54,119 bases of DNA from Cyanobacteriota bacterium. GTDB lineage: Bacteria; Cyanobacteriota; Vampirovibrionia; LMEP-6097. The DNA is taken from positions 1-54,119 of the forward strand of contig JAQCFG010000006.1 of NCBI GenBank assembly GCA_027618255.1, given 5' to 3'. A program made the translations under genes and the position numbers. Shown piece by piece: positions 3,106 through 21,345 of this stretch; position 1 is the first letter of the stretch; each line of letters starts with the position of its first letter. Below the pieces are notes generated by a model. It worked only from the letters and a program-made list of their open reading frames with translations, had not been told where the DNA came from and ran no database searches.

Positions 3106-4053
3106 CTGGTATTTTCGCAACTAAGAATTGGAACCAGAGATAGCAAGCTTGCCTTGGTGCAGACTCGTTGGGTTAGAGACATCCTGCTTTTACAATATCC
3201 TGATCTTGCAATTGAGATTATTGAAATCAAAACTCAGGGTGACAAGATTCTTGATATAGCACTGTCCAAAATTGGCGATAAAGCATTATTTACCAAAGAA
3301 CTTGAAAATGAATTATTACTGGGTACTATTGATCTTGCGGTCCATTCAATGAAGGATCTGCCAACACAATTGCCTAAGGGACTAGAGATTTGTGTAACTA
3401 GCACTAGGGAAGATATTCGGGATGTCGTTTGTTTTTCTGGTTATAGCGGGGTTGTATCGCTCAAACAAGCCAAAACAATCGGCACTTCTAGTTTAAGAAG
3501 AATCGCTCAGCTCCAAAATAAATATCCGCAAATCAATTTCGTTGATATTCGTGGCAACTTGCAAACTCGTTTTAAAAAACTCAATAATCCAGCCAATGGT
3601 TTTGATGGTATTGTACTTGCGGCAGCAGGACTCAATCGTCTTGGTATGCAAGACTCGATTGGTGAGTACTTGAATCCATTAGAGATTTTACCAGCTGTTG
3701 GACAAGGTGCTCTTGCTATAGAAATCAAGTCTGGTCGTGATGACTTGACTGAGTTTTTGCGCAAAAGTCTCAACTCTCCAGTTGATGAAGCGATAGTTAA
3801 AGCAGAGAGAGCATTTTTGCGTAGGCTTGAGGGCGGTTGCCAGGTGCCGATTGGTGTTTACTCGACTTTGCGTGGCTTTGGCGAGAATGCATTAATTGAA
3901 ATTGTTGGCATTGTTGCTAGTCTTGATGGTTCTCAAATTATTCGTTTAGAACATAGCGGCTCAGTGACTCAGCCAGAACGGCTTGGTCAAGAATTAGCCG
4001 AACAGTTTTTAGCGACTGAAGCGAAAGAGATTTTGGCGGGTTTGAGGACTTAG
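3106..4053 (+). CDS. hemC: Porphobilinogen deaminase (hydroxymethylbilane synthase), probable CTG start
   Basis: Condenses four porphobilinogens into hydroxymethylbilane in heme biosynthesis. The 315-residue product has the three-domain PBGD hallmarks: LRIGTRDSKLALVQ at the N-terminus, KDLPTQLP, GTSSLRRIAQLQ, DIRGNLQTRFKKL, and EGGCQVPIG, whose cysteine (about residue 245) holds the dipyrromethane cofactor. A start at GTG 3154 would delete LRIGTRDSKLAL, which belongs to the active-site domain. The frame extends upstream, and the only plausible initiation point is CTG at 3106, eight bases after AAGGAG. This non-canonical start is inferred from conservation plus the ribosome site. Two other heme genes (hemH, hemY) lie elsewhere in the window. 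The 3' end overlaps a convergent gene by four bases. Confidence 0.93.
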   Translation: MVFSQLRIGTRDSKLALVQTRWVRDILLLQYPDLAIEIIEIKTQGDKILDIALSKIGDKALFTKELENELLLGTIDLAVHSMKDLPTQLPKGLEICVTSTREDIRDVVCFSGYSGVVSLKQAKTIGTSSLRRIAQLQNKYPQINFVDIRGNLQTRFKKLNNPANGFDGIVLAAAGLNRLGMQDSIGEYLNPLEILPAVGQGALAIEIKSGRDDLTEFLRKSLNSPVDEAIVKAERAFLRRLEGGCQVPIGVYSTLRGFGENALIEIVGIVASLDGSQIIRLEHSGSVTQPERLGQELAEQFLATEAKEILAGLRT

Positions 4054-4553
4054 TTCCAAAAAGAATATCTTCTGTTTATGCTTGGGTCAAAGCGAGGGTC
4101 GCTTCCTGGTAGTGATCTGCTATGCCAATAGTTCCTTTTATTATAAGATCGAGGGTAGATTGTTTCACCTGGACGGTAGACTCTGCCGTTGGGTGCAAGA
4201 ATCCAGTTGCCTCTTGTTGCAGGTTCCACTCTGGATCGACTTTTAGGATAGCCATCTGGCTCAAGATTTTGCAATCCTGGAATTCCATTAGCTCCTGGTG
4301 GCGCATAACTTGGTTGGAAGATCCAGTGTTTTTTTTGTTGAGTTGAGTCTGAAGTAATTTTGTGTGCTAATCTTTTTACCTGCTTACGTGACTCTGCTGC
4401 TGGTCTTTGGTATGGAACAACTGGAGTGGTTTGTTCAGTCTCAGAATAAATAGAATTTGGTTTTGCTGCAGGCTCTGCTGCCTCAAGATCTTGACCGCCT
4501 GATGGTAATAAGCTAGCTGCTGCCAATGTTAATGCTGGTAATATTTTATTCAT
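4050..4553 (-). CDS. Secreted hypothetical protein
   Basis: I do not recognise a family. The preferred ATG (4553) gives 167 residues starting MNKILPALTLAAASLLPSGG, a plausible signal peptide, with a weak CAAGGCG ribosome site before it; an upstream ATG at 4613 would add 20 residues ahead of the signal. The mature part is rich in Pro, Arg, Ser, Asn and Tyr, with low-complexity character. Near the C-terminus is a segment rich in aromatic residues (GNWILAPNGRVYRPG ... RRYSFWN). It probably lies outside the cytoplasm. The stop overlaps hemC by four bases in convergent orientation. Its 5' flank abuts a copy of the intergenic MITE-like repeat. Confidence 0.6.
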   Translation of the reverse strand: MNKILPALTLAAASLLPSGGQDLEAAEPAAKPNSIYSETEQTTPVVPYQRPAAESRKQVKRLAHKITSDSTQQKKHWIFQPSYAPPGANGIPGLQNLEPDGYPKSRSRVEPATRGNWILAPNGRVYRPGETIYPRSYNKRNYWHSRSLPGSDPRFDPSINRRYSFWN

Positions 4554-4611
4554 ACGCCTTGCTTGAGATAAGAATATCAACAGAAGCTCCTTTAAGTCAA
4601 GTGAAGCTTCC

Positions 4612-4681
4612 ATTAGACTTATTGCAAAAGTCGGAATTATCCTTAAAGCAAACGCAACATTCGTTGCGGTTGCTACTTTTT
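4612..4681 (-). repeat. MITE-like repeat, truncated copy
   Basis: From the left terminal sequence ATTAGACTTATTGCAAAAG through the CGCAAC-ATTC-GTTGCG hairpin to TGCTACTTTTT, this matches the reverse complement of the complete element at 9565-9680 nearly base for base. The other terminus is missing. It lies upstream of the minus-strand secreted-protein gene. Confidence 0.75.
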
Positions 4682-7936: not shown

Positions 7937-8043
7937 ACCTTGCGTGTGTATAAAGATATTATGAACAATAAATATATCATAATATATTAAAAATGCATTA
8001 GGGAATAAGTAAAGGCGCTTTAGCTGTTTTAAGATGCTTGCTT

Positions 8044-8607
8044 ATGACTATTAGATTCCCCGGATTTGTGCCAAGCTCTGCAATAGCAGGAGGCTCTTTT
8101 GATGCAAGGGCAGTTAGAGATACGATGCATCATCGCAGATTGAAGATGATGGATGGGCTGCACGTTGTATCTAATACAATTGGAGACAGGCTTACTGATC
8201 TAAGTTGGAGAAATAAAGCTGGTTTATCCCCAGCAACTAGAACAGATACGCTTGAATTATTACATGGCTATAGCTCAATGCTTGGTGATTTTAGTTCTAC
8301 TTTTAGATCAGCTTACAATTTTATGGATACTTTAGTTAGCTTAATTGGTAAGTCAACAAGGTTTACTAAAAATGGGACCACGTTTGATCAAGCGAAACAT
8401 CATGATTTATTAGTTAAATCAAGAAGCGTTCTCAGGGTAGCTATGGCTCAGTTAACTAAGATTCTTAATACAGATGTGCTACCTCTAATTGCGGAGACTA
8501 CAGGATTGGATTTAGCTGTGAAGCCTAGTGTGATGAAAGCTAAAGTGCAGCCGGGAGACATGGCTTTTTCATCTCCCCCTGTTCAGATGGCTATTGCCCT
8601 CAGTTAA
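8044..8607 (+). CDS. Hypothetical protein, helical
   Basis: 187 residues from ATG 8044 (an in-frame TTG at 8038 adds two). No family recognised. The sequence contains no signal peptide and no clear membrane segment; it reads as a mostly helical cytoplasmic protein with a His/Met-rich stretch near the start (DTMHHRRLKMMDGLHVV) and a central LLHGYSSMLGDFSSTFRSAYNFMDTLVSLIG segment. A TAAGAT hexamer ends eight bases before the ATG and no ribosome site is seen, the same near-leaderless arrangement as the neighbouring chorismate mutase. It stands between the divergent hemH and aroH with no obvious functional link. Confidence 0.55.
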   Translation: MTIRFPGFVPSSAIAGGSFDARAVRDTMHHRRLKMMDGLHVVSNTIGDRLTDLSWRNKAGLSPATRTDTLELLHGYSSMLGDFSSTFRSAYNFMDTLVSLIGKSTRFTKNGTTFDQAKHHDLLVKSRSVLRVAMAQLTKILNTDVLPLIAETTGLDLAVKPSVMKAKVQPGDMAFSSPPVQMAIALS

Positions 8608-10704: not shown

Positions 10705-12564
10705 CTATTCAGGTTGCTCAGTTTTAATTCTGTCTTGTTTGCTTTCAACAGCAAATCTTGTTATTAATTTTTCGACTTCAGATACTGCAATATCTTGCCC
10801 ATGAACTAGTAACATAATGCTTAGTAACTTAAGAGCTTCAAAGCAAAAAATAAGCGGATGTTGACCCTTGGACTTTTCAAGTAATTGATTACCAAGTTCC
10901 GGCTTATTTACTAATCTATGAGGACTGATTGAGCTGAAATAGTCATTAATTATTTTTGATTTGAAATTTTCTTCCTTTGGGTTTATTTCTAATATTTGAG
11001 AGAAGAAATTGCTGCGTAATTGGCTGATTGCCATCATTGTAGTCTCACTTTGTATTTCTTCAGCACTTTGGTTGATTGATCCTATTAAATATGACTTTGT
11101 ATCTAGGGCTTGTATATAAAGTGTTTGAGCAAACTTGCTTCTATAATTTGCAGCCTGACTTTTATCGGAAGGATACATAAGTTCAGGATGATCAATATAA
11201 AGAAGATATGGTTTACGTATGTCTGCCAATATAGCATTTGATTTATTGTAATCCTCTTTGCCATTGATATTTGCAATATTGAGATAGCCAAAATTGAGAC
11301 CCGATTCTCTAGCAAATGCTTTTGCAAAATATAGTTTTGTAATTTCATCGTTGCCAGTTAACAGAACCCCCCCATAGATCTTTTGACAGGATATTTGTGC
11401 TATGACAGTTGGAGCAGCAAAAAGTTTTTTGAAACTTTCATAGGCTTGATAAAAAGGTCGAGGAATAGGAGAACGAACCTCAAGAGGATTTTCTGCTCGA
11501 AGAATTTCTTTGGAAATTGAATTCTCCCTCTGTTTGGCTATACAAATACTTTCAATTTCATCGGACTCTAGCCCATGAATACTAGCTATTGCTCTGCGTA
11601 AGTGGTTTTGCGAGTCGTCTGTAAGTAAAGTCATAGCGTAGATCTCAGCAATCCTTAAATTGTCTTTTTCTTGTCGCGCTCTTTTCATTAATGGTTCAAT
11701 TGCTAATTTGTGGATATGTAAATTAGAATTGCAGGCTAGTTGGAAGACTTCAAGAAATTCTTTTTTCGCTATATTTAATGCGGCATCGTTAAATAAGTCT
11801 TCCAAAATTTCCTTGTCATTTTCATCAGGTGCTTTAGCAATATTGTTAAAGTGTTTGAGTTCTGCTCTTAAGGTTTCAAGCACTATACTATCTTGGATTG
11901 CTGAGTCAAACTTCTTGATCGACCTAAGAGCGTGTGTCCTAATGGTGAAGACCTCTAGGTGGTTTGTAATAATTGATATTGTTAAGCCTGAACCAAAGGA
12001 TTCTAATTTAGGCAGTATGTCGATAATTATTTTTTTGCGTTCTAGTTCGGATTGGATGTTTGATTTGCGGTCAAACTCTTCACTTAGGGTTTTGAGAGCA
12101 AGTTGAGGATTAATTATTGTAAGTATCGTTGCAGATTTTTTATAGTAATTAGGTATGCTTCTGTATTCATTCCAGAGTTTGCCTGAGCGCAGAAAGAATT
12201 TTGCAACTATATGCCCGGCACCTTCCTCTGTAAAGATCGGCAGTGCATTGAGGGCTTCTAGTGTAATTGGGCCCCAATGCTTGGCTGGCTCATTAAAATG
12301 ATCGTTTAATAATATTAGTGCTTGGCTTTTAGTGTTTTTATTTTCTTGTTGGATCCATTGCATCCAGTCTTGTTCGGACTGGTGATTGTATTTATAAAAA
12401 ATATTATTTAATGTATGGACTTTGTTTATTTCGGTTGACCCAGTAGATTTACCTTCAAAGGAGAATTCAGGGATATTGTCTAAGATCAAATAGGCTACTA
12501 ATGCAACAAAAACTATAAAGACTGCCAGAAGGCTTAGTTGATCATGGAGGATCACATCAAGCAT
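10705..12564 (-). CDS. Membrane-anchored protein with helical repeats and a degenerate AAA-like domain (paralog B)
   Basis: 619 residues. An N-terminal membrane helix (about 11-29, LLAVFIVFVALVAYLILD) is followed by a motif shared with the upstream gene (NNIFYKYNHQSEQDWMQWIQ), a long alpha-helical, HEAT-like middle, and a C-terminal region shaped like an AAA+ domain. In the P-loop position is GNDEITKLYFAKAFA: the lysine is kept, but the glycines and the Ser/Thr of GxxGxGK(S/T) are gone. The Walker B-like strand reads PYLLYIDHPEL. It is clearly paralogous to the neighbouring 12557-14311 gene, with which it overlaps by eight bases. Third gene of the motB operon. ATP binding is doubtful; function unknown. 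Confidence 0.65.
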   Translation of the reverse strand: MLDVILHDQLSLLAVFIVFVALVAYLILDNIPEFSFEGKSTGSTEINKVHTLNNIFYKYNHQSEQDWMQWIQQENKNTKSQALILLNDHFNEPAKHWGPITLEALNALPIFTEEGAGHIVAKFFLRSGKLWNEYRSIPNYYKKSATILTIINPQLALKTLSEEFDRKSNIQSELERKKIIIDILPKLESFGSGLTISIITNHLEVFTIRTHALRSIKKFDSAIQDSIVLETLRAELKHFNNIAKAPDENDKEILEDLFNDAALNIAKKEFLEVFQLACNSNLHIHKLAIEPLMKRARQEKDNLRIAEIYAMTLLTDDSQNHLRRAIASIHGLESDEIESICIAKQRENSISKEILRAENPLEVRSPIPRPFYQAYESFKKLFAAPTVIAQISCQKIYGGVLLTGNDEITKLYFAKAFARESGLNFGYLNIANINGKEDYNKSNAILADIRKPYLLYIDHPELMYPSDKSQAANYRSKFAQTLYIQALDTKSYLIGSINQSAEEIQSETTMMAISQLRSNFFSQILEINPKEENFKSKIINDYFSSISPHRLVNKPELGNQLLEKSKGQHPLIFCFEALKLLSIMLLVHGQDIAVSEVEKLITRFAVESKQDRIKTEQPE

Positions 12565-14311
12565 TCTCTACCCCCCTCATTTTTGTAGCAATTGATTCTA
12601 GTTCTTCGAATCGTTTTAATTCAATTACTTTTCCTTCCGTAAGTAAGCCTGCTTTGAAGTATTTAACTAATGCATCATCATATTCCAATCGGGAATTAGC
12701 GCTTATTGAACCAATAATATTTTCCATATTGAAACTACCAGACTTATTTTTCTGTTGTATTTTGTCAAGTTTATGTTTAAAGATGGTGGCTTTGCCTATT
12801 GGTCTAAGTTCTGGAATATCACAGGTGCTTGTACTAAAGTATGGTTTTAGTTTTTCTGGAATTACTAATTCAGCTTCTTCTTTATTGCTTGTCATAATGA
12901 ATTTTGTACGTGAATCATTAGCTAGATTTTTGATTCTATTCATGAAATCTATGTTGTTTGATTGCAGCATTGAATCTATTTCACTGATATAAACCAGTAT
13001 CGGTCTATTCGCTAGTATCTTGTCGTGAAAGTCATTAAACACAATGTCAGAACTTTGTAAGTCTTGATATTGTGCATAGAGAAACGTCCACTGATTCTCT
13101 GCGGCTATAGCTCGAGCAAAATGTAGTTTATCTAATTCCGAAGAACCACTAATTAATGGAACAGTTTGTCTCTCTGCTTCTGCAACTGCAGTTTTGGTTT
13201 GTTCATAAAGTTCGTTCATTGCAGCTGTAATAGGTAGTTTTTTAATGTTTTCATGAGCTAGTAGCTCTGCTTTGAATGGTATATTGATTGGTAGGTGATC
13301 ATTGAGGCAGAGTTGGATTTCAGCGGTGTTGAGACCAAAGTTTTTAGCAATAGCGTGGATGACATTTTCGATTGCAGTTAGTACATATAATGTTTCAGGA
13401 TTAAATAGATCAGGTTTTTCTGTGATCACATTGGCTAATGAACGGATAGCATATTTGCCAAGATGTTTATGTTGGCAGACTTGCATGATCAGTTGAATCA
13501 CACTATCGTCAAGATTGTCTCCAAGTAGACTTAAAAGCCCAGTTAAGAGTTTGCCTGTGTCATCATTTGCATTTGCATACTCGATTTGAGTTATGTTCTT
13601 AAGAGTAGCAATGATGGTTTTGTTTGTTTCTTCTTCATTTCTTCCTTCTGCCATGATTTCTAACACTTGTTTTTTAACTTTGAAAGCTTCGATGGGGTCA
13701 GTTAGTATTTTGCAAAGGATTGTACTGATATCAAAATCTTGTTCAAACAGCGCAAAAGACTTAACCATGCTTGTATTGATCTCATAATGATTTTTATGAT
13801 TCTCAAGTTCTTTGAGTATTAATGTTTGAGCTGACTCTGTATCTATCTCAATAAGTACTTCCCAGCAAGCTTGATAGATTTTTTCTGTGATAATATATTT
13901 GTCCCATATTTTTTTACAGGTATTGATTACTGTTTTGATTTCTTTAACTAGCTGCTTTGCATGTGGATCATTTTGATCTTCAACAAAGACAGCTAAGGCT
14001 CTTATTGCTTCAGGACTGATTAGTCCCCATGCGCCAGGATCTTGTTCTAAGTGAGTAATGAGTAATGCAATTGCTGTTTCTTGAGTTGCTTTGTCTTGTT
14101 TACTGATCCATTGTTTCCAACCTTTGATGTCATTATGGTCAAAGAGGTAAAAAATTGAACTCAATGAATTCGCTGGATTAAAATCAAACAAATGACCAAG
14201 ATTGAAAATTTTAGCAATAAACTTTAATGCACTAGCTATCTTGTGAAAGCCAGCAATAAAGATGACTACAAGGACAATCGTTATTGAAATTATAGTTAAG
14301 CTAACTGACAT
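12557..14311 (-). CDS. Membrane-anchored protein with helical repeats and a degenerate AAA-like domain (paralog A)
   Basis: 584 residues. N-terminal membrane helix (about 4-22), then SIFYLFDHNDIKGWKQWIS, matching paralog B, then helical repeats and an AAA-like C-terminal third. The nucleotide-binding loop reads GSSELDKLHFARAIA, which keeps Lys but lacks GxGK(S/T). The Walker B-like segment is PILVYISEIDSML, and the sensor-1-like segment KFIMTSN keeps its Asn. The order of elements resembles FtsH-like AAA proteins without the protease. It begins four bases after the motB stop and overlaps paralog B, so all three are surely co-transcribed. A role around the flagellar stator or cell envelope is inference from context only. 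Confidence 0.68.
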   Translation of the reverse strand: MSVSLTIISITIVLVVIFIAGFHKIASALKFIAKIFNLGHLFDFNPANSLSSIFYLFDHNDIKGWKQWISKQDKATQETAIALLITHLEQDPGAWGLISPEAIRALAVFVEDQNDPHAKQLVKEIKTVINTCKKIWDKYIITEKIYQACWEVLIEIDTESAQTLILKELENHKNHYEINTSMVKSFALFEQDFDISTILCKILTDPIEAFKVKKQVLEIMAEGRNEEETNKTIIATLKNITQIEYANANDDTGKLLTGLLSLLGDNLDDSVIQLIMQVCQHKHLGKYAIRSLANVITEKPDLFNPETLYVLTAIENVIHAIAKNFGLNTAEIQLCLNDHLPINIPFKAELLAHENIKKLPITAAMNELYEQTKTAVAEAERQTVPLISGSSELDKLHFARAIAAENQWTFLYAQYQDLQSSDIVFNDFHDKILANRPILVYISEIDSMLQSNNIDFMNRIKNLANDSRTKFIMTSNKEEAELVIPEKLKPYFSTSTCDIPELRPIGKATIFKHKLDKIQQKNKSGSFNMENIIGSISANSRLEYDDALVKYFKAGLLTEGKVIELKRFEELESIATKMRGVENA

Positions 14312-14315
14312 TTAG

Positions 14316-15431
14316 TTAGTGACCGCCTCCACCACCACTTGGTGCTGGAGCAGCTTCGTTACCGCCACTCGCTTCTTCACCGTGCCCACCGGCCGCAGGC
14401 ACAGATCCCGTTCCTTCAGGGTGTCTTTTTCTGAAAGATTGGCGTGCTTTTTGGCGTTTTAATTCATCTAGACTAAGAGGTTTGTCAGATTTGCCAGCTG
14501 ATGCACCGTATTCTTTTATACTGAGGTTGCCACTTTGTTTCTGCTCAGATTCTTTTTGTCTTGCTGCTCTAACTTCTTTACCCAAGCTTGCTTGTTCATC
14601 AAGATATTTTGGTTTCAAGTTTTTTTCTTCACCATCTTGCAGTAACAGAATTGTAATTCTTCTATTTGCTGCAGCTAGTGGAAGCTCAGGATCTTTAAGT
14701 TGGCTATCTGCGTAACCTTCGACTCTAGCAAATCTGGTTTTGTTTACTCCATCGTAGATCAAGCGAGTTTTGATTGCAATTGCTCTATCCGTTGATAGAT
14801 TCCAGTTATCGTAATTTCCATAAGAAAAATCCTTACCGTCTGTATGCCCTGCAACAACTATGGAGCTGATTTTATTCTTGATTACATTAGCGACTTTGTC
14901 TATTAGTGATCTTGCTTCTCCAGTCAATGCCGCTGAGCCAGAGGGGAAGACCTCCATGTTCTCATCGTCTTTAATTTCAATTAGGATACCTTGTTCAACT
15001 AAATTAAATTCAACTTTGTCGAGTAAGCCTTCATCAGAGCTAATTTCTAATTGCTTCTGTAAATCATTTTTCATTTTACTTTGTACTTCTTTTTTGTTTT
15101 GCCCAGTGAGTACGAGTTTTTGGAATTCAAGGAAGCTAGCACCACCTTCCATTCTCCCTGGGTTACCAGGTCTTTTGGCACCGCCAAAAATGAAAACATT
15201 GCCTTGCATAGGACCAGTTTGAGTTGGTTGTTTAAAGAAATTGGCAACGGCTGATTTTGCACTTGGGTCGACATTGACTAACCATAGAAGTAAAAACAAA
15301 CACATCATCGCCGTAACAAAATCGGCATAGGCAACTTTCCAGGCACCACCATGATGTCCATGTCCTGCTACTTTCTTAATTATCTTTTTGATAATTATTG
15401 GTTCGTCTTTTTTAATTTGTGCTGCAGCCAT
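14316..15431 (-). CDS. motB: Flagellar motor stator protein MotB
   Basis: Stator subunit that conducts ions and anchors the motor to peptidoglycan. Start chosen at ATG 15431 (MAAAQIKKDEP), eight bases after GAAGGGA; an upstream frame extension exists but lacks a ribosome site. The product has 371 residues. The membrane helix WKVAYADFVTAMMCLFLLLWLV (about 31-52) contains the ion-carrying Asp37. A plug/linker region follows, then an OmpA-like peptidoglycan-binding domain (VVAGHTDGKDF ... NLSTDRAIAI ... VEGYADSQ ... AAANRRITILLL). The tail is rich in Gly, Ala, His and Glu and ends in repeated glycines. No motA is adjacent in the window. It is the first gene of an operon with two degenerate AAA-like proteins. 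A MITE-like repeat sits directly upstream. Confidence 0.92.
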   Translation of the reverse strand: MAAAQIKKDEPIIIKKIIKKVAGHGHHGGAWKVAYADFVTAMMCLFLLLWLVNVDPSAKSAVANFFKQPTQTGPMQGNVFIFGGAKRPGNPGRMEGGASFLEFQKLVLTGQNKKEVQSKMKNDLQKQLEISSDEGLLDKVEFNLVEQGILIEIKDDENMEVFPSGSAALTGEARSLIDKVANVIKNKISSIVVAGHTDGKDFSYGNYDNWNLSTDRAIAIKTRLIYDGVNKTRFARVEGYADSQLKDPELPLAAANRRITILLLQDGEEKNLKPKYLDEQASLGKEVRAARQKESEQKQSGNLSIKEYGASAGKSDKPLSLDELKRQKARQSFRKRHPEGTGSVPAAGGHGEEASGGNEAAPAPSGGGGGH

Positions 15432-15444
15432 TTTTTTCCCTTCT

Positions 15445-15561
15445 AATAGACTTCCTGCGAAAGTCCTCTTTATCTTCACTAACGGAACTAGTGCTTCTCA
15501 CCGTTCCGACCTTTTTTGTGTCGACATCACTAGCAAAACTTCGTTTTGCAGGATGTCTAAT
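15445..15561 (+). repeat. MITE-like repeat, complete copy between motB and fliS
   Basis: The left end AATAGACTTCCTGCGAAAG and the right end, whose reverse complement reads ATTAGACATCCTGCAAAACG, match the termini of the copy at 9565-9680. The interior differs and has its own inverted repeat, AACGG...CCGTT. The right arm forms GACATC-ACTAGCAAAAC-TTC-GTTTTGC-AGGATGTC. Confidence 0.8.
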
Positions 15562-15704: not shown

Positions 15705-16130
15705 TTGGAGCTTAGTAAAAAGGTCAATAAATTATCAGGTATCAAGAAAAAATTTTTGAAAAACGTTGTTGAGACTTCAAGTCCAATTCAATTAGTGATT
15801 TTGCTATATGAGGGTTGTCTTCAATGGTTACATATGTCCAAAGAAGAGATTCGCAAGAACAAGAATAATAAATTAGCTAATTGGTCAGACTATGCAAATT
15901 ATATGGCTATGGCTATTGATATTTTGAATTATATGCATGATACCTTGGACGTTGAAGCGAGTAAGGATTTTGCAATCCCAATGTCAGAGCTTTATACTTT
16001 TATGAAGATGAGATTGTTTAAGGCGAACATCGCGAAAGATCCCAAGGTGATAGATGAGGTTGTTGATCTTGTGAAAGATCTTAAGGACACGTGGAAACAA
16101 GCCATAAAGCAAGATGTTTCAATTAGCTGA
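15705..16130 (+). CDS. fliS: Flagellar export chaperone FliS-like protein
   Basis: Small helical chaperone predicted to bind the C-terminus of flagellin and prevent premature polymerisation. 141 residues, normal length. The family core VETSSPIQLVILLYEGCLQWLHMSKEEI (about 24-51), a YMAMAIDILNYMHDTLDVEAS helix and a C-terminal VIDEVVDLVKDLKDTWKQA helix are visible. The start is TTG at 15705, preceded by GAGAGG at good spacing, which decides for this codon. Divergent from motB, so it marks the region as flagellar. fliD and flagellin are not in the window. A GCCGATTA sequence at 15656-15663 resembles a sigma-28 -10 element, but no matching -35 is seen. Confidence 0.82.
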   Translation: MELSKKVNKLSGIKKKFLKNVVETSSPIQLVILLYEGCLQWLHMSKEEIRKNKNNKLANWSDYANYMAMAIDILNYMHDTLDVEASKDFAIPMSELYTFMKMRLFKANIAKDPKVIDEVVDLVKDLKDTWKQAIKQDVSIS

Positions 16131-20237: not shown

Positions 20238-20325
20238 TATGCCAGGTATTTTGTATTTTTACAAAAGGCCTAAATTCGTCGTGATTAATGGCGCAAATAA
20301 TATCAATACTAATTTGGGATCAACC

Positions 20326-21345
20326 ATGGCTGATTTACAGGATGGCGCGTCTCAAATTACAAGAGAAGAAAGTTATTTTACTGAACCAAGTAGTTCTATT
20401 ATTGCTAAGCCAGTTCAAACTGATACGGACGACTATATGAATGCGTTCATTAACAATAAAATGGTTAGAGATATTGTGCCACATTTGATGAATTTGACAA
20501 ATATTGCTGGTAATATTTTTTCTTTTTCTTCTTGGGCTTTTGGTTTTAATGATGCATCCAAAAAATTTGCCAAGACTGTTGGATCGCTTGCGACAAAATC
20601 TTTTCTTGTTGCAACTAGTGTCATTAATGTTGTTGAACGACTTCACACAAAAAATTATTTCTCTGCATTGGGTTACTTTAATGACATTGTTATTGCAGGT
20701 ACTGTTGATCAGGACAATACTTACTTAGCACGTGGTATTGCTTCTGGTACTTACAATATGGCAAATTCACTTAATATTGCTAATGATCGTACTGGTTTTG
20801 ATAGTTTCGAAGATCACTTGCAGCATTTGGTTAAGGGCTTTGGCAAGTTCTTTAAGAATCTATTCTCGGCAGATGTTGCGAAGAACTTTATAAAGAGTGA
20901 AAATGGTATGTGGGCTACTATTGGTGGGCTGTTTGCCAATGTCGGTGCTTTATCTTGGATGTTTACAGGCAAGGTACAGATACCTACCTTCATTAGAGAT
21001 CTTGCTGGAATCGTTATGGATATTGAGCAGCTCAATTTTGGTCATTATAAAGCTGGACGTAAGGATTTGTTTAAGTCTGGCTTGGCACTGGTCGTTGGTA
21101 CTGTTGCAGATTGGTTATCAAAGTTGATGCCTCAATACAAAGATGCTTTTGTGCCATTGACATTTATTTTTGATGGTATTGGAAAGCATTGGTTGAGATT
21201 GCATCAAAATGAGCATGAGATGGGTGACAAGAGAGACGATGAGAAGCAGCTTGAAAAGCTTCCAGCCGTCAAGCTTGCTCAAAAGGAAGACATGCCATTG
21301 GTTGCTAGAAGGGGGTCTGAGCTTTTGGCTCAGCAGGTAGCATGA
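20326..21345 (+). CDS. Unknown protein, member 1 of a three-member paralogous family
   Basis: 339 residues from ATG 20326, which has GGGA seven bases upstream; an ATG at 20239 lies too close to the -10 box to be in the transcript, and a GTG at 20281 is another option. No known family recognised. The hydrophobic, glycine/alanine-rich body has about five amphipathic or weak membrane helices. The segment LARGIASGTYNMANSLN, followed by a conserved helix (FGKFFKNLFS) and GGLFANVGALSW, corresponds to LAQGLSSGTTMMASAHN and GGNMNFFGGLGG in the paralog at 32376-33407. The stop overlaps the next gene's ATG (ATGA), so members 1 and 2 are translationally coupled. The tail is charged. Confidence 0.55.
   Translation: MADLQDGASQITREESYFTEPSSSIIAKPVQTDTDDYMNAFINNKMVRDIVPHLMNLTNIAGNIFSFSSWAFGFNDASKKFAKTVGSLATKSFLVATSVINVVERLHTKNYFSALGYFNDIVIAGTVDQDNTYLARGIASGTYNMANSLNIANDRTGFDSFEDHLQHLVKGFGKFFKNLFSADVAKNFIKSENGMWATIGGLFANVGALSWMFTGKVQIPTFIRDLAGIVMDIEQLNFGHYKAGRKDLFKSGLALVVGTVADWLSKLMPQYKDAFVPLTFIFDGIGKHWLRLHQNEHEMGDKRDDEKQLEKLPAVKLAQKEDMPLVARRGSELLAQQVA

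Follow-up and report, generated by a model that had tools for sequence, protein, structure and literature searches.

Two AAA-like paralogs with an altered P-loop are encoded directly behind motB in one family of Melainabacteria

The motB-B-A operon and its distribution

We analysed a 54,119-nt stretch of DNA from a Cyanobacteriota bacterium (hereafter, the window), in which motB is followed by the genes of two long proteins, named here B and A (Table 1). The original prediction had placed two long paralogs directly 3′ of motB, and re-examination of the open reading frames returns the same junctions, with a 4-base gap between motB and B and an 8-base overlap between B and A. The motB reading frame has an alternative GTG start at 15479; the starts of its orthologs agree with the ATG at 15431, so the end coordinate of 15431 given in that prediction is sensible. 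The encoded protein matches Pfam MotB_plug (PF13677, E = 6.6e-16) and OmpA (PF00691, E = 9.5e-14), and its best NCBIfam matches are MotB models (PRK09041 MotB, E = 7.9e-54). In a MotB_plug search of the window's genome, the motB of the operon is the sole match. In addition, each genome of the window's bacterial family carries one MotB and one FliG, indicating that the motB of the operon is the flagellar stator gene.

Table 1. Features of the motB-B-A locus (window coordinates; residue numbers are those of the protein named)
Feature	Position	Strand	Basis or remarks
Protein A, 619 aa	10705..12564	(-)	Membrane helix, helical solenoid and degenerate AAA module; ortholog in 9/9 family genomes
AAA core of A with its C-terminal helical lid, ~residues 399-609	10738..11370	(-)	AF2 secondary structure; Foldseek
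A altered P-loop GNDEITKLYFA, residues 404-414	11323..11355	(-)	Same alignment columns as B P-loop
A all-helical solenoid, ~residues 45-383	11416..12432	(-)	AF2 secondary structure, pLDDT 80-92 over residues 141-240; Foldseek ARM matches
A motif IFYxYxHxxxxxWxQWI, residues 55-71	12352..12402	(-)	Same alignment columns as B motif
A N-terminal membrane helix (predicted), ~residues 10-30	12475..12537	(-)	Kyte-Doolittle peak 3.03 at residue 10; model helix 2-30
Protein B, 584 aa	12557..14311	(-)	Membrane helix, helical solenoid and degenerate AAA module; ortholog in 9/9 family genomes
B AAA module, ~residues 384-570	12602..13162	(-)	Pfam AAA 0.024, KAP 0.0013; family profile vs p97 2.5e-11; own model low-confidence
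B altered P-loop GSSELDKLHFA, residues 389-399	13115..13147	(-)	G389 and K395 invariant, GK[ST] never present
B motif IFYxFxHxxxxxWxQWI, residues 53-69	14105..14155	(-)	H59, W65, W68 invariant in 29/29
B N-terminal membrane helix (predicted), ~residues 3-25	14237..14305	(-)	Kyte-Doolittle peak 2.77 at residue 3; model helix 4-35
motB	14316..15431	(-)	Flagellar stator protein; MotB_plug and OmpA-like domains; YADF motif, proton-channel Asp present
fliS	15705..16130	(+)	Divergent neighbour of motB in 9/9 genomes; PF02561 5.7e-26, TIGR00208 5.8e-22, synteny

A first search with B recovered B-like proteins in all nine genomes of the window's family, which represent five genera, and in none of 51 other genomes of the class. 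A 26-member profile of the A/B family, run on 382 genomes of the class, matched over the full length in those nine alone, and all its other matches were confined to the AAA stretch; in a 386-genome sample of the phylum (Cyanobacteriota), it matched nothing outside the window's family at E <= 1e-10. A single B protein searched against 84,980 species genomes, a scan that detects close relatives only, matched only the sister species; the sister genome among the matches is 'Candidatus Melainabacteria bacterium isolate SI037S4_bin4'. Searches of viral contigs and plasmids, and of PDB sequences with B alone, gave no lead. Within the class and phylum samples searched, the A/B family is specific to one family of Melainabacteria (Vampirovibrionia).

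The order of the three genes is conserved throughout this bacterial family. Specifically, motB, B and A are consecutive on one strand in eight genomes, adjoining reading frames overlapping by up to 8 bases or lying up to 9 bases apart, and the ninth genome (G002) has the same arrangement split across contig ends. The pair follows motB in 9/9 genomes and was never found without it. A gene labelled MaoC-like from its sequence is the convergent neighbour of A on the downstream side, also in 9/9 genomes. Nothing evident ties this equally stable gene to motility, so conserved adjacency says little about function on its own. Outside the window's family, MotB was found in 18 genomes among the 146 class genomes sampled; among the contexts listed, motB of these class relatives generally lies directly behind motA, or has no motA nearby, and is never found with A/B.

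Elsewhere in the window, the open reading frames 8038-8607, 4050-4613 and 20239-21345 have no Pfam match at E 0.001; homologs of the first and last of these are present in the sister genome G001.

Architecture of A and B and the altered P-loop

A and B are paralogs with 25% identity over 466 aligned columns (BLASTP, E = 3e-24). In the window, each has one strong N-terminal hydrophobic helix with just a few residues ahead of it, and hydropathy indicates that this helix is absent from the B ortholog in 4/9 family genomes. The N-terminal motif reads SIFYLFDHNDIKGWKQWI in B and NIFYKYNHQSEQDWMQWI in A. Of the motif SIFYxFxHxxxxxWxQWI first put forward as common to A and B, the leading S is not common to the two proteins, and the remainder is.

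AF2 models of both proteins were built from 4 sequences, with a mean pLDDT of 61.4 for A (64–81 in the AAA core and 80–92 in much of the solenoid), which can be used in parts, and 53.3 for B, whose model was too poor and was left out of the fold search. The model of A starts with a long N-terminal helix, is all-helical to about residue 383, alternates strands and helices over residues 400-526 and ends in a helical lid. Specifically, the AAA part runs strand 400-403, helix 407-420 and strands 424-429, 453-458, 492-497 and 523-526, followed by helices, so that, at moderate confidence, an alpha/beta core precedes a helical lid as in the AAA family (PF00004). In Foldseek, the solenoid of A matches the ARM repeats of SARM1, beta-catenin and importin with a probability near 1 and E values just above 1e-3, and the AAA part matches Vps4, i-AAA, Rpt and Cdc48 chains with a probability of 1.0 but E values above 1e-3.

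The family profile searched against PDB sequences matches p97/CDC48 chains at E = 2.5e-11, exactly over the AAA module, and single proteins fall below threshold against Pfam AAA (PF00004; 0.0076 for A and 0.024 for B). On the profile match, the matching secondary structure and Foldseek, the AAA module of A/B is homologous to the AAA ATPase core. Hydropathy, the AF2 model of A and the profile match together bear out the predicted layout of an N-terminal membrane helix, helical repeats and an AAA-like C terminus. Membership in the KAP NTPases (PF07693) was rejected, with one of 26 members, B, matching at E = 0.0013 and 18.5 bits, below the cut-off of 20. A match of one family member to FliG_N (E = 0.078) is weak and was set down to chance. 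Pfam, NCBIfam and PADLOC hold no family spanning full-length A or B.

To describe conservation, we counted residues over 29 near-full-length members of the A/B family, numbered as in B. Besides the start methionine, six columns are invariant: H59, W65, W68, E331, G389 and K395. The last two are the first glycine and the lysine of Walker A, unchanged in 29/29 members, none of which has GK[S/T] (0/29), and the loop consensus is GxxxxxK[L/I/V/F/Y]. Position 394, preceding the lysine, is E in 16 members, D in 11 and T in 2 (D/E in 27/29), and position 396, after the lysine, is hydrophobic in 29/29 (L, I, V, F or Y). A scan for GxxxxGK[ST] along the whole length of every member found none, eliminating an overlooked second P-loop elsewhere in these proteins. 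The hhhhDE pattern of Walker B is not kept, with D at position 443 in 8/29 and E at position 444 in 4/29, and the sensor 1 region has no clearly conserved Asn; R522 is present in 23/29 members. A Walker B-like DE is retained in a few B proteins, such as that of G005 (VLYLDEVE).

These residues bear on whether A and B could be atypical AAA proteins that are still active or still bind nucleotide, with the lysine contacting phosphate and the pair using ATP to remodel the stator. The invariant glycine and lysine, the homology to remodelers of the p97/Msp1/Vps4 type and the DE of a few B proteins would fit such an activity. However, every member has D, E or T in place of the glycine before the lysine and a hydrophobic residue in place of the Ser/Thr after it, and the Walker B positions are not conserved, so that we regard an active pair as very unlikely. 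With the lysine retained, A and B could still bind nucleotide.

In a tree of the 29 sequences, branch lengths sum to about 28 changes per column, which indicates that the invariant G389 and K395 are strongly constrained and excludes chance. A and B form separate clades (support 97/95 and 91/90), and the other paralogs lie apart from both. The duplication that gave rise to A and B therefore predates the window's bacterial family, and the loss of Walker A most simply predates that duplication. Between two sister species, dN/dS is 0.135 for A, 0.229 for B and 0.076 for motB. Random decay of an ATPase was rejected, given the same P-loop change in 29/29 members and a dN/dS of 0.13–0.23; the change is a conserved motif, in agreement with the original prediction. 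The A/B family is under purifying selection and has lost Walker A in all members.

Paralogs beside flagellar genes and a possible role of the A/B family

Extra paralogs of A and B are present in five genomes of the window's family. One group adjoins flagellin (G000, G001, G002 and G005), and another is convergent with fliG (G000 and G001). In G004, one gene lies between the paralog (L044:8969-10768) and a second-type flhA (L044:5924-8026), while in G005 a paralog overlaps a CheY-like gene by 8 bases, with an MCP gene alongside. Two further groups (L032/L036 and L045) have no flagellar neighbour. With motB included, 5/7 locus groups adjoin flagellar or chemotaxis genes, for which the chance would be roughly 0.001 if flagellar genes made up 3–4% of genes, a rough guess and not a test. 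The presence of a larger paralog family beside other flagellar and chemotaxis genes widens the proposed role from a stator partner to a flagellum-linked scaffold family. At another locus (L040:302-9468, G002), three paralogs of ~1000 aa lie in tandem, and the one that was scanned has no Pfam match.

The gene neighbourhoods also bear on whether A and B are membrane proteins unrelated to the stator, carried on the motB transcript by history only. The MaoC-like gene, as stably placed and with no motility link, and the paralogs lacking a flagellar neighbour would be in accordance with such a history. Against it, the frames stay on the same strand, overlapping or nearly overlapping, across five genera although the wider surroundings of the operon differ between genera, and independent paralogs repeatedly adjoin flagellar and chemotaxis genes. 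We consider a purely historical gene order unlikely.

Our preferred reading, to which we assign about even weight, is that A/B are a catalytically dead, membrane-tethered solenoid-AAA family of scaffolds or chaperones dedicated to the flagellum, of which A and B would serve the stator, a function read from gene neighbourhood only. A and B would be founding members of a lineage-specific family of pseudo-ATPases anchored in the inner membrane. In each, a short membrane helix at the N terminus would be followed by an ARM/HEAT-like solenoid in the cytoplasm and then by an AAA fold without a catalytic P-loop, in which the fixed G...[DE]K[LI] loop may have been retained to support structure or binding. 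Presumably translated from one mRNA with MotB, A and B would assemble in the cytoplasm into a heteromeric scaffold or chaperone, which would burn no ATP and would bind MotB/MotA at membrane insertion or at docking on the rotor. Further copies of the family would then have been taken into service by other parts of the flagellar and chemotaxis machinery, as the paralogs by flagellin, fliG, flhA and the CheY-like gene suggest. Here we infer co-transcription, cytoplasmic topology, hetero-assembly, stator contact and the lack of ATPase activity. The stable MaoC-like neighbour, the paralog loci L032/L036 and L045, and the B orthologs without a membrane helix weigh against a scaffold. More tentatively, separate copies may serve the stator MotB, the switch FliG, flagellin, the export gate FlhA and CheY, and would together make an unseen cytoplasmic scaffold around the motor, in which the ring-forming AAA fold is structural only and carries a new GxxxxEKLY loop.

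A narrower role as a stator-specific chaperone seems rather unlikely to us. In such a role, A and B would bind new MotA/MotB, shield them from membrane proteases until docking and have no role once the motor is complete, like FlgX in Campylobacter. The motB-first operon in 9/9 genomes is in line with this role, a solenoid joined to an AAA module could plausibly bind clients, and FlgX, which protects stator proteins from FtsH in Campylobacter jejuni according to the available part of its description (PMC6686046), is an earlier example of a stator chaperone restricted to one lineage. The paralogs, however, adjoin flagellin, fliG, flhA and cheY and not stator genes.

Among known systems, classical AAA proteins (p97/CDC48 D1, Msp1, Vps4 and i-AAA/Yme1; PF00004) share with A/B the homologous module, the same order of strands and helices, and the C-terminal helical lid. 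Msp1 and i-AAA are in addition anchored through one N-terminal membrane helix, as predicted for A and B. In contrast to classical AAA proteins, the A/B family lacks the GK[ST] of Walker A and a conserved Walker B, and carries a large ARM/HEAT-like solenoid between the membrane helix and the AAA module. AAA+ pseudo-ATPases include the clamp-loader subunits delta and delta-prime, Orc subunits, and AAA5 and AAA6 of dynein, in which the AAA fold is structural after loss of the P-loop, and A and B resemble them in keeping this fold as a structural or assembly module. These pseudo-ATPases work in rings alongside active subunits; the class genomes searched yielded no protein of the A/B architecture whose P-loop is intact and which could act as such a partner.

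In rhizobia, motC follows motB. Zorya, in which ZorA/ZorB are encoded with ZorC/D/E, likewise has a MotB-like protein encoded together with other proteins; a Zorya defence system was rejected here, as A and B match nothing in PADLOC (no ZorC, ZorD or ZorE) and motB matches ZorB weakly (1.9e-11). To our knowledge, very little is known about the motors of non-photosynthetic cyanobacterial lineages. As far as the available text goes, MotC, MotE and MotK of alphaproteobacteria are likewise extra proteins acting on MotB, and they are periplasmic (PMC10954123), whereas the prediction for A and B is a cytoplasmic location and an AAA module. FlgX is, like A and B as judged from their operon, a lineage-specific stator accessory; it differs from A and B in that the available text does not present it as an AAA protein (PMC6686046). 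The open-access literature yielded no AAA-like MotB partner and, as noted, no database family covers full-length A or B, which agrees with the initial statement that no such partner of MotB is known. AAA pseudo-ATPases and lineage-specific stator accessories are already known kinds, and their combination in A/B is new as far as searched. Much of the diversity among flagellar motors is explained by lineage-specific accessories; if our reading is right, a dead-AAA pair serving MotB and strictly conserved across the bacterial family would be a new structural class of stator accessory, and would show clearly how a P-loop can be converted into another conserved motif ahead of a family's radiation.

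The flagellar gene set of the bacterial family

Flagella are already known in Melainabacteria (PMC3787301, PMC4040986); no paper linking motB to Melainabacteria came up in the open-access literature. In the window's family, motA lies away from motB and is of the MotA1 type (L148:7622-8485), whereas the motA of a class relative is of the PRK09109 type (L131:4721-5503). The window's family therefore seems to differ from its relatives in stator type, and a stator replacement, perhaps through transfer, may lie behind this.

Two copies of flhA are present in 7/9 family genomes and two of fliP in 8/9, a few of them partial at contig ends; examples of duplicate copies are G000:C67:5064-7064 with G000:C42:1-1962 (L157, L158) and those on G000:C14 and G000:C18 (L163, L164). 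Each of the two FlhA types scores better against FlhA than against SctV. Together with the single fliG and single MotB per genome, the two copies of flhA and fliP suggest that the family has a second flagellar-type export apparatus without a switch or stator of its own.
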